From Acidimicrobiaceae bacterium (GTDB lineage: Bacteria; Actinomycetota; Acidimicrobiia; Acidimicrobiales; Ilumatobacteraceae), in NCBI GenBank assembly GCA_024641005.1, contig JAHEDX010000039.1, forward strand, positions 1-37,234: 37,234 nucleotides of DNA. The letters are read 5' to 3'. This document shows positions 27,289 to 31,980 of the stretch, piece after piece. A program made the position numbers and the translations under genes. Position 1 is the stretch's first letter; each line of letters begins with the position of its first letter. The notes beneath the pieces are model-generated. The model did no database searches, was not told the origin of the DNA, and saw only the letters and a list, made by a program, of their open reading frames with translations.

Positions 27289-29190
27289 TCAGTCTTCGCG
27301 AAGGTGCCGCAAGAACGTCTCGACCTCGCCGCGGTCGCGCGTTCTCTTCATGGGAGGCAACGCCTTGATGATGTCCCAGCGGTACCTGGCCGAGCCGAGT
27401 CTCGAGTCGAGCACGGCCACGACCCCGTGGTCGGTGGCGTTGCGAATCAAACGTCCCGACGCCTGGGCGAGCAGGGTTGCCGCACGGGGTACGTCGATCT
27501 GGGAGAACGCGCTCGGCCCGAGTTGTTCCCTGCGTGCGGACAGCAGGGGATCGTCGGGTCGGGGAAATGGCAGTTTGTCGATCACGACGAGCGACAGCGT
27601 GCTACCGGGGACGTCGACGCCCTGGAACATCCCGGTCGTCGCGAAGAGGCAGGTCTCCTCCGATTCGGCGAACTTCCGCACCAGCGCCGGTTTCGGCAGG
27701 TCACGTTGTGTGAGGATCGGCACCGAGACCTTGTCGCGGACAGCATCGACCGCGTCGTCCATGGCTGCCCAACTCGTGAACAGGGCCAGCGTGCGCCCGC
27801 CGGCCGCCTCGATCAGGGCGATCAACTCTTCCGCGACTGCGGCGCGGAACTTCGGCGACTTGGGGGGTGGGAGGTGCATCGCGCAGTACAACATCGCCTG
27901 GGCGTCGTAGTCGAACGGGCTACCGACATCAGCCTCGGTGGTGGTCGACTCGGGCAGCCCGACCCGTCGGCTGAGCGATGACGGGATGGTGGCGCTCGTG
28001 AGGATCGCGGTGTGCTGCTCCCATACACCGAGGCTCAGCGTGGGCCCGACGTCGAGCGGGGCGATCTCGAGTCTCGGGTTGTCGCGGTTTCCGGACACGA
28101 ACGGCACGGTGCCGTCCCCCGCCCGCAACGCAGCTTCGACCGATTCCATCGTGCGAGTGATCATGCGTTGGGCGCGCAACTTGCGCTGTTGGGCGTCTTC
28201 GACGCTGGTGTCGATGGCCTGGACCGCCTCGCCGACTCGTGTCAGGCGGAGTTGTGCCTCGTGCAACCCCTCGACGATCGCGTCGGGAAGGGGTGTCGCC
28301 AATCGTTGACCTGCGAACGGTGACAACGCGTCGCGCATGACCGACGCAAGATCGGTGATCGCTCCGATGAGCTGAGGATCTTCGAGGAACCGGCGAACCG
28401 TCGCACCGACCGTGACGAATCGCCCGGGCGCGATCTGCACTCCGACGGTGTCGCTCATCGTGTCCTCGAGCACGTGTGCCTCGTCGAAGATGATCAGGTC
28501 GTGTTCAGGCAGGATGGCGCCGCCACTGCCCACGTGTAGGCCGTACAGGTGGGTGTTGACGACGACGACGTCAGCGGCCTGGGCGCGGCGCCTGGCGAGT
28601 TCTGCGAAGCATTCCTGGCCCATCGGACAGCGGTCGGCGCCAGGACATTCGTCCGAGCCCACGCTGACGGCCTTCCATGACGCGTCACCGGGGTTCCAGT
28701 CCAACTCGGCCTGGTCGCCGGTCGCGCTGGTTGCCGCCCATTCTCCGAGTTGCTTGATCTCGAGTTTCGTGGTGGCTGCCATGTCGTCGATCTCGAGTTG
28801 GGCCTGGGCTGGATCGTTGGTCTCGCGGAGGCGCTGCAGGCAGATGTAGTTGCTGCGACCCTTCAACACGGCCCACTCGACGTCGATGCCCTGGCGCACC
28901 AACTCGGCTTGGAGGAACGGGAGATCCTTGCTGGCGAGCTGATCTTGCAGTGCCTTGGTTGCCGTGGCGACGACCGTCCGTCGGCCGGACACGATTGCGG
29001 GGATCAGATACGCCAGCGTCTTGCCGGTGCCGGTGCCGGCCTGCACGACGAGATGGCGGCCCTGTTCGATCGCATCGGCGACGAGCTCGGCCATCTCGCG
29101 TTGGCCGAGCCGTTCTTCCGCGGCGGGTAGGGCGGCCGTGACGGCGTCGAGGACCACGACCGCCGAAGCGGTCGCGCGTGGGACGCTCAT
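27289..29190 (-). CDS. DinG/XPD-type iron-sulfur DNA helicase
   Basis: This 633-aa superfamily 2 helicase has the Q-motif region GQREMAELV, Walker A AGTGTGKT (residues 51-58), the four-cysteine Fe-S insertion (NYIC ... DECPGADRCPMGQEC), the DEAH box in LIIFDEAHVLED, motif III-like ILTSATIP, and the C-terminal motifs TTGMFQGVDVPGS and QASGRLIRNATDHG. It is the actinobacterial DinG/YoaA-like family, unwinding 5' overhang, R-loop or G4 structures in DNA repair. There is no exonuclease domain. ATG 29190 overlaps the uppS stop (ATGA), so it is the second gene of that unit. Confidence 0.93.
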   Translation of the reverse strand: MSVPRATASAVVVLDAVTAALPAAEERLGQREMAELVADAIEQGRHLVVQAGTGTGKTLAYLIPAIVSGRRTVVATATKALQDQLASKDLPFLQAELVRQGIDVEWAVLKGRSNYICLQRLRETNDPAQAQLEIDDMAATTKLEIKQLGEWAATSATGDQAELDWNPGDASWKAVSVGSDECPGADRCPMGQECFAELARRRAQAADVVVVNTHLYGLHVGSGGAILPEHDLIIFDEAHVLEDTMSDTVGVQIAPGRFVTVGATVRRFLEDPQLIGAITDLASVMRDALSPFAGQRLATPLPDAIVEGLHEAQLRLTRVGEAVQAIDTSVEDAQQRKLRAQRMITRTMESVEAALRAGDGTVPFVSGNRDNPRLEIAPLDVGPTLSLGVWEQHTAILTSATIPSSLSRRVGLPESTTTEADVGSPFDYDAQAMLYCAMHLPPPKSPKFRAAVAEELIALIEAAGGRTLALFTSWAAMDDAVDAVRDKVSVPILTQRDLPKPALVRKFAESEETCLFATTGMFQGVDVPGSTLSLVVIDKLPFPRPDDPLLSARREQLGPSAFSQIDVPRAATLLAQASGRLIRNATDHGVVAVLDSRLGSARYRWDIIKALPPMKRTRDRGEVETFLRHLRED

Positions 29191-29903
29191 CGAACGAGTG
29201 CGATCGCAGCGTCGAGGTCGGCGGCGTCGAAGTCAGGCCAGGCAGCGGTGGTGAAGTGGATCTTCGAGCCGGCGCTCTGCCAGAGCAAGAAGTTCGACAC
29301 CCGCTGCTCGCCGCTGGTGCGCACCATCACATCGACGGGTGGCAGCTCCGGCAGGTACAGGTGAGCGTCGATCGTCTCGGGTGTGATCGCTTCGCCCGCC
29401 GACCTCGCGGCGCGGACTGCGCTCATGAGCTCGGTTCGGCCGCCGTAGTCGAAGGCGACGGTCAACACCATGCCGGTGTTCGAGGCAGTGTCGTTGATCG
29501 CTTTGCGGATCGCCCGCTGGACGTACTTGGGGGTGCGCGCCGCAGCGCTGTCGAAGGGACGTCCGATCCACTGGACGCGAACGTTGAGGTCGTTCAGTTC
29601 GCGAACCCGTCCGAACAACTTCTCGTGCAGACCGAGGATGTGGCGCACCTCGCCCCGGGGCCGAACCCAGTTCTCGGTCGAAAAGCCGAAGACGGTGAGC
29701 CAGCCCACGTTTCGGGTGACCGCGACACGGACGATGCGAGCGAGATTCTCCTCGCCTTCGGTGTGGCCCGCAGTACGAGGAAGATCACGGTTGCCGGCCC
29801 ACCTGCCGTTGCCGTCCATGATGCACGCGACATGCAGCGGTCGCAGCGGAGACGAAACCCCGGAGGGCTCATCCGTTCCGGTTGCGCTGATCGTGTCGTT
29901 CAC
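29187..29903 (-). CDS. uppS: cis-Prenyltransferase (UppS family), lacking the C-terminal RxG
   Basis: A 238-aa enzyme expected to condense isopentenyl diphosphates onto an allylic primer, making the polyprenyl diphosphate lipid carrier for cell wall and glycan synthesis. Catalytic features are intact: HVACIMDGNGRWA (Asp30 equals Asp26 of E. coli UppS), GHTEG, LTVFGFSTENWVRP, AFDYGGRTEL and VRTSGEQRVSNFLLWQ. Two features differ. At the position of E. coli Glu213 (YAEL, a Mg site) it has Lys214 (AGSKIHF), and the protein ends at IALVR, before the family's C-terminal RRFGG. Both missing elements are present in the divergent neighbour. GTG 29903 is supported by TACCGT 9 nt upstream. The stop overlaps the helicase start. 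Confidence 0.92.
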   Translation of the reverse strand: MNDTISATGTDEPSGVSSPLRPLHVACIMDGNGRWAGNRDLPRTAGHTEGEENLARIVRVAVTRNVGWLTVFGFSTENWVRPRGEVRHILGLHEKLFGRVRELNDLNVRVQWIGRPFDSAAARTPKYVQRAIRKAINDTASNTGMVLTVAFDYGGRTELMSAVRAARSAGEAITPETIDAHLYLPELPPVDVMVRTSGEQRVSNFLLWQSAGSKIHFTTAAWPDFDAADLDAAIALVR

Positions 29904-29912
29904 AGGCAACCC

Positions 29913-29918
29913 ACGGTA
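29913..29918 (-). promoter_or_regulatory. -10 box of the uppS-helicase unit
   Basis: TACCGT on the minus strand is 9 nt before GTG 29903, in the 64-bp spacer shared with the divergent paralogue. Confidence 0.5.
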
Positions 29919-29967
29919 GTGGCAGGGGAGGCGGGCGAGACGGGCTTTGGCGTGGGAGAATGCATGG

Positions 29968-30561
29968 GTGAAGCAGTCCACCCCGGTGCCGACGCCCGAC
30001 CCTGCCCAGCGGCCATCGAGAGCGAAGGCGCCGAACTCGTCACTTCGTCACGTCCTGCTGGTGGGTGGAACCTTGGGGGAGTGGGCGGCGATGTCCGATG
30101 CCGAATGGTCGCACCGCGTGGGGGAGTTGGGTGCGCTGTGTGCCGATCTCGGGATTCCGTGGTTGACCTTGAGGGCCTACGAGCAAGGGCGTGACGAGGC
30201 GGCCGGCAATCTGACGCGTTGGCAGCACTCGGTCGACGGGTGTGACATCGTCATCGATCCGTCCGGGGACGGGCGTCAGCGCTTCGCCGACGCGATGCAA
30301 CGGCTCGATCGCGCCGACGAGGTCAACGAAGCATCGGTTGCCGCTGCGCTGTACGAGCCGGCGGACTCCGAGCCCGACCTGGTCGTCGTGTTGGGTCCAC
30401 CGACCCAGCTGCCACCATCGCTGGTGTGGGAGCTCGCCTATGCCGAACTGGTCTTCGCCCCGGCATCGTGGCAGCAGCTCGCCGCCGCTGATCTCGCGGG
30501 CGCGGTGGCCGATTTCTCCAGCCGGCGTCGTAGGTTCGGCGGTCTCGACGACGATGAGTGA
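29968..30561 (+). CDS. Degenerate UppS paralogue, possible NgBR/Nus1-like accessory subunit
   Basis: This 197-aa protein aligns with UppS at both ends but lacks the catalytic machinery. HVLLVGGTLGEWA (residues 28-40) matches HVACIMDGNGRWA with the catalytic Asp replaced by Gly34. GIPWLTLRAYEQ replaces the LTVFGFSTENW region, and the RTSGExRxS substrate motif is replaced by VLGPPTQLP. It keeps LVWELAYAELVF (Glu160 equals E. coli Glu213) and the C-terminal RRRRFGG (RxG at 189-191), which the adjacent UppS lacks. In eukaryotic NgBR, a catalytically dead cis-prenyltransferase homologue, the RxG completes the partner's active site. A similar role is inferred. GTG 29968 follows GAGAAT by 6 nt. It overlaps recO by 8 nt. 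Confidence 0.82.
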   Translation: MKQSTPVPTPDPAQRPSRAKAPNSSLRHVLLVGGTLGEWAAMSDAEWSHRVGELGALCADLGIPWLTLRAYEQGRDEAAGNLTRWQHSVDGCDIVIDPSGDGRQRFADAMQRLDRADEVNEASVAAALYEPADSEPDLVVVLGPPTQLPPSLVWELAYAELVFAPASWQQLAAADLAGAVADFSSRRRRFGGLDDDE

Positions 30562-31282
30562 GCTGTACCGCGATGTCGGTGTCGTGCTGCGCACGTACAA
30601 GCTGCGCGAGTCCGATCGCATCGTGGTGTTCATGACCGCCGAGAACGGCAAGGTTCGCGCCGTCGCCAAGGGAGTACGAAAGACGAAATCGAAGTTCGGG
30701 TCCCGACTCGAACCGATGAGCCATGTCCGTCTGTTGCTGTACCGCGGCCGCGAGCTCGACATCGTCAGCCAAGCCGAGTCGGTCGAGCCATTGTCGCCGT
30801 TGCTCTCCACGCTCGATCGGGCGTCCCAAGGTATGGCTGCGATCGAGGCCGTCGACCAACTCGGCCTCGAACGAGAACCGAATCCCCACCTCTATCGCAT
30901 GGCGGTCGGCGTGTTGCGCACGATCGCGGCGCGCCCGTCGGCCCTCAACGTGCCGGCGTTCTACTGGAAGCTCCTCGCGGCAGAAGGCCTCGAGCCTCAT
31001 CTCGACGCGTGTGTTCGGTGCGGAGAGTCAGAGCCCGAGGCCCAGCTCGTGTCGTTCGACGTGAACGAGGGTGGGGTGATGTGTCGGGCGTGTCGGTCCG
31101 GGGTGCCGATATCACCAGCTGCACTCGGGATCATGCGTGACATCCTCGGAGGGCGCCTCAACGAGGCGCTCTCACTCGACGAGTCTCCGGCCACACATGA
31201 GGTCGGCGGGCTGGCGACACGGGCCCTCGAACACCACATCGAGCGCCGACTCAAGGCCGTCGCCATGTTCGAACGGCACTGA
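30554..31282 (+). CDS. recO: DNA repair protein RecO
   Basis: A 242-aa recombination mediator that helps load RecA at gaps, with RecR. The N-terminal OB domain begins LYRDVGVVLRTYKLRESDRIVVF and continues KVRAVAKGVRKTKSKFGSRLEPM. A helical domain follows, with a zinc site CVRCGE ... CRACRSG. The C-terminal helix (LEHHIERRLKAVAMFE) is typical. ATG 30554 overlaps the end of the UppS-like gene by 8 nt, so recO depends on it for translation. In many actinobacteria recO lies directly beside uppS, which suggests the degenerate gene sits in the ancestral uppS position. Confidence 0.93.
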   Translation: MSELYRDVGVVLRTYKLRESDRIVVFMTAENGKVRAVAKGVRKTKSKFGSRLEPMSHVRLLLYRGRELDIVSQAESVEPLSPLLSTLDRASQGMAAIEAVDQLGLEREPNPHLYRMAVGVLRTIAARPSALNVPAFYWKLLAAEGLEPHLDACVRCGESEPEAQLVSFDVNEGGVMCRACRSGVPISPAALGIMRDILGGRLNEALSLDESPATHEVGGLATRALEHHIERRLKAVAMFERH

Positions 31283-31851: not shown

Positions 31852-31980
31852 GTGCCAGGTCAGAACGTCCGGTGCCCGGTCAGAACGTCCGGTGCCCGGT
31901 CAGAACGTCCGGTGCCCGGTCAGAACGTCCGGTGCCAGGTCAGAACGTCCGGTGCCAGGTCAGAACGTCCGGTGCCAGAT
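31852..31980. repeat. 20-bp tandem direct repeat, six core copies
   Basis: CAGAACGTCC occurs six times exactly 20 bp apart (31861, 31881, 31901, 31921, 31941, 31961), alternating with GGTGCCAGGT or GGTGCCCGGT. The variable base gives the order A, C, C, C, A, A, A, the first and last half-units being slightly altered. A frame reads through on the plus strand, but 20 is not a multiple of 3 and the region lies between divergent start codons, so I treat it as non-coding. It could be an array of protein-binding sites for the glyS or PPOX promoters, or a simple variable-number repeat. Confidence 0.95.

Follow-up and report, generated by a model that had tools for sequence, protein, structure and literature searches.

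Bacterial UppS, a cis-prenyltransferase, is a standard homodimer and an antibiotic target. Passages of a review of the family assign homodimeric enzymes to bacteria and plants and heteromeric ones to eukaryotes (PMC7839719). In the human enzyme, the tail of the NgBR subunit crosses the subunit interface and enters the active site of DHDDS, where the backbone nitrogens of NgBR Leu291 and Gly292 bind phosphate in the isopentenyl diphosphate (IPP) site (excerpts of PMC7573591). In the archaeon Methanosarcina mazei, two paralogues, MM_0618 and MM_1083, form a heteromeric cis-prenyltransferase that is thought to make a glycosyl carrier (work cited in a portion of PMC8131916). The stretch of DNA analyzed here, 37,234 nucleotides of an Acidimicrobiaceae bacterium of the family Ilumatobacteraceae (contig JAHEDX010000039.1; hereafter the window), carries two divergent UppS-like genes, one for a catalytic subunit and one for a catalytically dead partner. 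Their sequences and the analogy to the systems above make it very probable that the two proteins form a heteromeric cis-prenyltransferase making polyprenyl diphosphate. No earlier report of such an enzyme in bacteria was found in the open-access literature, a coverage that leaves subscription papers and preprints largely outside.

A sequence-only reading of this window had pointed to two UppS-like genes running away from each other across a 64-bp gap, which both the coordinates and matches to the Pfam family PF01255 confirm. The catalytic protein scores 215 bits against the profile (cut-off 27) over positions 1–208 of 219, and the partner, with 41.5 bits over positions 125–219, also lies above the cut-off, so both belong to the family. 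The source genome (4.1 Mb, 94% complete) yields these two PF01255 matches and no more; a separate full-length UppS, which the same reading had named as evidence that would speak against it, gave no match there. In the window, the catalytic protein has all of D30-G-N-G-R34, H47, FSTENW, R81 and R195-TSGE-x-R201-x-S203. The partner carries Gly34 at the position of Asp26 and VLGPP in place of RTSGE, and alignments to E. coli UppS bear out the earlier observation that it has lost the Asp, the FSTENW region and RTSGE and has kept Glu160 and an RxG tail. The losses had been called complementary, and the retention of motifs in every row of the two family alignments described below shows that this is not due to chance.

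The catalytic alignment contains 118 rows including the window (116 of them different, since G043 and G059 are each entered twice; L001 and L002, both of which correspond to the window, were omitted). The partner alignment contains 106 rows including the window, with L002 (a duplicate), L079 and L110 (cut at contig ends) and L130 (a gap) omitted. The comparison set consists of 20 single UppS proteins, four of them listed in Ilumatobacteraceae and 16 drawn from other families of its order. All 118 catalytic rows keep D30, G31, N32, R34, W35, H47, F74-STENW79 and R81 in the first half of the protein and R195, T196, S197, E199, R201, S203, N204 and W208 in the second; D30-G-N-G-R34 is invariant in the 20 single UppS as well. 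RxG is found at its conserved place in none of the 118 catalytic rows, L121 alone having an isolated R-Q-G elsewhere, and it ends 19 of the 20 single UppS, the remaining one (L008) reading RLFGG. The position of E. coli Glu213, which from the E. coli literature we take to be an active-site residue, is Glu in 20/20 single UppS, and in the catalytic rows it is Lys in 45, Ala in 25, Arg in 15 and Glu in 10. In the partner, Glu160, R186, R188, R189, F190 and G191 are present in 106/106 rows and G192 in 105, and G34, W39, D137, W154, E155 and Y158 are further invariants (106/106). Over 105 loci, partner sequences share a median pairwise identity of 42% and catalytic sequences one of 69%. The partner thus drifts faster, yet its invariants include the tail and the Glu that serve the active site of an ordinary UppS. 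Neither protein combines the catalytic motifs with a C-terminal RxG, as a homodimeric UppS does; instead, there is a motif-complete catalytic subunit without RxG and a dead homologue that has it in 106/106 rows.

The survey of the pair covered family, class and phylum samples. Within the family, 221 genomes were searched with PF01255 and with a profile of the partner, with a complete row per genome, and the results were combined by hand. Both genes are present in 191 genomes, a few of which have one gene in pieces (the partner of G076, the catalytic gene of G175). Two genomes combine the catalytic gene with a fragment of the partner (G043, G208), five have the catalytic gene alone (G059, G105, G114, G184, G191; 60–86% complete), five the partner but no clear match for the catalytic gene (G045, G064, G067, G069, G081; 68–98% complete), one a fragment of 49 residues at the first base of a contig (G140), four a single full-length UppS (G020, G225, G226, G138) and 13 no match (55–84% complete), which completes the 221. 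Contig ends were seen for four of the five catalytic-only genomes (G105 was not checked), and the partner gene of G081 lies at the very start of its contig (from base 5), the other partner-only genomes not having been checked for contig ends. Relatives with one gene only, which the sequence-only reading had expected to count against it, therefore do occur (10/221), but they are 60–89% complete apart from G081 (98%) and are not taken as refuting the pair. In the subset of 79 genomes with a completeness of 90% or more and a contamination of 5% or less, the pair is present in 76, the partner alone in one (G081) and a single UppS in two (G020, G225). A broken partner gene in G076 was considered and rejected: the apparent stop lies next to masked positions, translated as X, which suggests a gap in the assembly.

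Named strains, Ilumatobacter nonamiensis YM16-303 and Desertimonas flava SYSU D60003 among them, occur in the best 80 of 340 matching stretches, a set that overlaps the 221 genomes and does not sample the family independently. The catalytic gene is divergent from the partner in 76 of these stretches; of the other four, two (L164 and L182) start close to the end of a contig, L159 has the catalytic gene ~9 kb away and L204 has it on another contig. In G008 (L240:2764-12020), ~9 kb of other open frames separate the catalytic gene and the partner, and the dinG and recO neighbors are kept. G065 has two different contigs with a catalytic gene (L247, L248), one of them with the partner ~2 kb off, perhaps a strain mixture in the assembly.

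The co-occurrence, for which a survey of Acidimicrobiia had been suggested, holds for Ilumatobacteraceae but not for the class at large. The class sample of 247 genomes includes 19 from Ilumatobacteraceae, and many of its families have two PF01255 matches. The matches were viewed in full for 25 non-family genomes, chosen for two or odd matches (among 41 genomes listed), and none of the 25 has the 1–209 catalytic form beside a partner; all their matches are full length (1–219) or among nine partial pieces, five of which lie within 13 bases of a contig start and four of which (G396, G404, G418, G306) were not checked for contig ends. The best partner-profile score among the 228 non-family genomes of the class sample is 107.9 bits, versus 133–268 in 18 of the 19 family genomes, the nineteenth being the single-UppS genome G225. 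Likewise, the best of 385 non-family genomes in the phylum sample reaches 107.9 bits with a full-length UppS, versus 169–268 in 11/11 family genomes, and the first 14 non-family matches all come from the same order. No orthologue of the partner was found in these 228 class and 385 phylum genomes outside the family. Three of the 175 good class genomes (G253, G280, G325; 90–100% complete) have no PF01255 match at all, which may mean that the gene was overlooked, fell into a gap of the assembly or is truly lacking.

AlphaFold2 models of the two monomers are of good quality, with a predicted local distance difference test score (pLDDT) of 88.7 and a predicted template modeling score (pTM) of 0.84 for the catalytic subunit, and 88.9 and 0.82 for the partner. 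In a Foldseek search with the partner model, the best matches among the 50 listed are UppS proteins (probability 1.00, TM ~0.5–0.6, root-mean-square deviation 5.6–9.5), so the partner has the UppS fold. Its profile aligns over residues 23–194 with residues 16–249 of M. luteus UppS, and the protein is ~60 residues shorter, mostly in one stretch after the FSTENW position. The best UppS chain is matched with E 4.9e-21 and the best NgBR chain with E 1.5e-4; cis-prenyltransferase similarity, on which the earlier interpretation of the plus-strand protein depended, thus extends over the whole fold.

Covariation between the two proteins was calculated as mutual information with background correction from 123 non-redundant paired sequences of 178 (effective number ~37), and the presumed interface was mapped by eye from the description of the DHDDS/NgBR interface, with both C-terminal segments added. 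Of the 20 highest-ranking pairs between the proteins, 10 lie in this interface, a number reached by 111 of 20,000 rotations (a first run of the same analysis gave 9/20). Rank 1 of 19,050 pairs joins residue 210 of the catalytic subunit to residue 129 of the partner. Rank 2 joins catalytic L159 to partner F106, equivalent positions in the two chains (alignment GGRTEL/DGRQRF), and residues 163 and 110, one helical turn further, rank 39. The observed maximum of 0.42 exceeds that of 20/20 pairing shuffles (highest 0.23), which leave phylogeny in. Inter-subunit covariation is enriched in the presumed dimer interface.

Gene order tells where the two copies came from. When the 20 single-UppS loci are oriented by recO, uppS and recO run in the same direction in 16, and 1.5-kb flanks show dinG divergent upstream in four and overlapping in a fifth; neither arrangement is seen in L019 and L032–L034 (4/20). 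The commonest order in the family is dinG< cat< partner> recO> (arrowheads give direction, cat is the catalytic gene), found in 153 of 197 loci from two overlapping collections taken together; most of the other 44 are probably cut loci or owe their order to overlapping frames. The catalytic gene and the partner are divergent in all 110 loci that hold both, a count in which the window itself appears twice (as L001 and L002). Since relatives have dinG< uppS> recO>, the place of the ancestral uppS is now held by the dead copy, beside recO, and the catalytic copy lies inverted beside dinG. G020, of the same family, encodes a full-length UppS and has the order dinG< uppS> recO>. Among Acidimicrobiia UppS, the catalytic rows make up a single clade (33/33, support 100/100), whose long stem (1.97) makes its place among the single UppS uncertain. 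The partner is closest to UppS of its own order and not to NgBR, which argues for an origin separate from that of the eukaryotic pair.

In group g42 (G225, G226 and G227; L279, L280 and L281), dinG and recO are adjacent with overlapping open frames, and neither gene of the pair lies between them. We count this joint absence in favor of a two-protein enzyme, together with the full-length UppS that two of these genomes (G225 and G226) carry at another place and that clusters with the UppS of G026 (family f3). No PF01255 match was found in G227, which is 81% complete. In the GlyRS tree, G020, G225 and G226 are nested among the pair-bearers (98/98); the RpoB tree does not settle their placement, and GlyRS and RpoB combined nest the single-UppS members among the pair-bearers with 94/98. 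In the recO tree, G020 groups with g42 (95/89). An approximately unbiased test does not reject the pair-bearers as one clade (p 0.54). The single-UppS members G020, G225 and G226 may have branched off before the pair arose or reverted later. G138 (72% complete, listed in g13), whose full-length UppS groups with g42 and which has no RecO or GlyRS match, is taken as a poor or mis-binned assembly and was omitted from the RpoB and combined trees.

The motifs are partitioned as in DHDDS/NgBR, from which we infer the same mechanism, with a tail acting in trans and one working site per heterodimer. According to this scheme, uppS would have undergone an inverted duplication, and the two proteins would associate like the halves of a UppS dimer, with a single functional active site. 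The partner's tail would reach across the interface to complete the IPP/Mg site of its catalytic counterpart, in the way the NgBR tail does for DHDDS. Neither homodimer could substitute for the heterodimer, and the polyprenyl diphosphate produced would be the precursor of an undecaprenyl-phosphate-type cell-wall carrier. It is likely that this bacterial family re-invented the enzyme independently, the two copies of an inverted uppS duplication degenerating reciprocally at the same residues as in DHDDS/NgBR, and that the pair is the sole polyprenyl-carrier synthase with one active site per heterodimer. The sequence-only reading of a heteromeric cis-prenyltransferase is supported; from it, we infer a heterodimer, the dependence on two proteins and the entry of the tail.

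The catalytic subunit could also be a self-sufficient homodimer with a site that functions independently of any tail, in which case the partner would be a regulator, a scaffold or a chain-length modifier. Parts of two papers give precedents: Methanosarcina MM_0014 is an active homodimer without RxG, so that loss of RxG alone is no proof of a second subunit (PMC8131916), and DHDDS alone is weakly active, its homodimers retaining residual activity (PMC7573591). The subunit's own fixed changes, Gly73, Ile89, Trp112 and Asp152 in 118/118 rows, could be read in the same way. However, the partner residues that are invariant in 106/106 rows include the equivalents of Glu213 and RxG, active-site residues of cis-prenyltransferases, and the pair is kept together in 76 of the 79 good genomes, which makes a self-sufficient homodimer unlikely. 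The two precedents nevertheless weigh against a heteromeric enzyme, as do several results of the present analysis. The sequence-only reading was right that the catalytic protein keeps all motifs and lacks RxG, but the loss of Glu213 that it described is not universal, since the residue is still Glu in 10 of 118 family rows. With a strict interface that excludes the C-terminal segments, the covariation signal is weaker (5 of the top 20 pairs, 389/20,000 rotations; 2 of the top 10, 1,678/20,000), and the equivalent pair formed by catalytic residue 160 and partner residue 107 ranks only 5,714 of 19,050. Furthermore, the covariation set is small and its scores are inflated by shared phylogeny.

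That the partner is a decaying paralogue, a pseudogene in progress carried by the recO operon, would agree with the disappearance of most of its catalytic residues, its divergent sequence and its 8-bp overlap with recO. Conservation led us to reject this explanation, whose probability is next to nil: the tail and Glu160 are invariant in 106/106 rows, the partner is kept even ~9 kb (G008) or 2 kb (G065) from the catalytic gene, and in g42 it is absent together with that gene. It is only slightly easier to believe, and still very improbable, that the partner pairs otherwise or the pair makes a side product, the essential carrier being supplied by an unseen full-length UppS. Part of the source genome, which is 94% complete, is indeed unseen, and the three good class genomes (of 175) without a PF01255 match indicate that a search can miss genes and that a gene could go unseen in a single genome. 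However, among the matches listed, a full-length match (1–219) occurs in only four family genomes, none of them with a partner, and the single-contig pair genomes G001, G009 and G021, with exactly two PF01255 matches each, largely refute an unseen UppS. The heteromeric enzyme remains the reading that we prefer.

The catalytic subunit has a signature of its own: Gly73, Ile89, Phe97, Trp112, Thr124 and Asp152 are fixed in 118/118 rows and absent from 20/20 single UppS. Gly73 occupies the position of E. coli Ala69, which is Ala in 20/20 single UppS and which, following the E. coli literature, we take to be a chain-length position. Product length is possibly changed, and a carrier of non-standard length is a tentative suggestion from this one substitution, with the odds rather against it.

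The features are listed in the table below. The start codons are predictions, in-frame GTG at 29981 and TTG at 29947 being alternatives. In the interval that separates the glycyl-tRNA synthetase gene from a PNPOx-like gene adjoining recO, the window also contains a tandem array (31852–31978) with 6.3 copies of the 20-bp unit GTGCCAGGTCAGAACGTCCG at 98% matches, where 0 are expected by chance.

Table. Features of the cis-prenyltransferase locus and its neighbors, in positions of the window
Feature	Position	Strand	Basis and remarks
DinG-type helicase (our designation)	27289–29190	-	PF13307, PF00270, synteny; 4 bp overlap with catalytic gene
Catalytic subunit, UppS-type cis-prenyltransferase	29187–29903	-	GTG start (predicted), 238 aa; ends before RxG tail
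Lys214 of catalytic subunit, at E. coli Glu213 position	29262–29264	-	Alignment to E. coli UppS
R195-TSGE-x-R201-x-S203, putative IPP site of catalytic subunit	29295–29321	-	Sequence comparison
D30-G-N-G-R34, putative diphosphate/Mg site of catalytic subunit	29802–29816	-	Sequence comparison
Spacer between divergent start codons, 64 bp	29904–29967		Sequence
Partner subunit, dead cis-prenyltransferase homologue with C-terminal RxG tail	29968–30561	+	GTG start assumed, 197 aa
Glu160 of partner, equivalent to E. coli Glu213	30445–30447	+	Alignment to E. coli UppS
R186-R-R-R-F-G-G192, RxG tail of partner	30523–30543	+	Sequence comparison
recO	30554–31282	+	PF11967/PF02565; 8 bp overlap with partner; context, ancestral uppS-recO slot

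The working principle is already known from eukaryotes and archaea; its occurrence in bacteria appears to be new and its origin there independent. With the ancestral gene order preserved in relatives, the split enzyme makes it possible to study how a homodimer turns into an obligate heterodimer, and the pair raises the question of why the same two features, RxG and Glu213, parted in bacteria and in eukaryotes. Being two small, apparently soluble proteins, the pair could provide a simple model of the human disease enzyme DHDDS/NgBR.

As in human DHDDS/NgBR (in yeast, Rer2 or Srt1 with Nus1), the catalytic subunit lacks RxG and mostly lacks the Glu213 equivalent, and a dead homologue holds both. 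DHDDS reads ...LLWQTSHSCLVF..., with HSC at the place of Glu213, and has neither feature; NgBR reads ...LPWHIRLTEIV...EQRLGK and has both the Glu (LTE) and RxG (RLG). In NgBR and the partner alike, the RTSGE block is replaced by a Gly-Pro-containing stretch. Unlike NgBR, the partner is bacterial and only ~197 residues long, and inspection by eye of the 26 residues before its core revealed no hydrophobic segment that could form an NgBR-type membrane anchor. The catalytic subunit, unlike DHDDS, ends directly after the core and has no C-terminal extension. Nor is the NgBR/Nus1 lineage the closest kin of the partner, its profile matching UppS chains far more closely, as described above. M. mazei MM_0618/MM_1083, likened here by description and not residue by residue, are likewise two paralogues, there archaeal. 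The homodimeric UppS of E. coli, M. luteus and M. tuberculosis (Rv2361c) shares its fold and all catalytic motifs with the catalytic subunit and its tail and Glu213 with the partner: there, one protein holds everything, and here the same elements are split over two.

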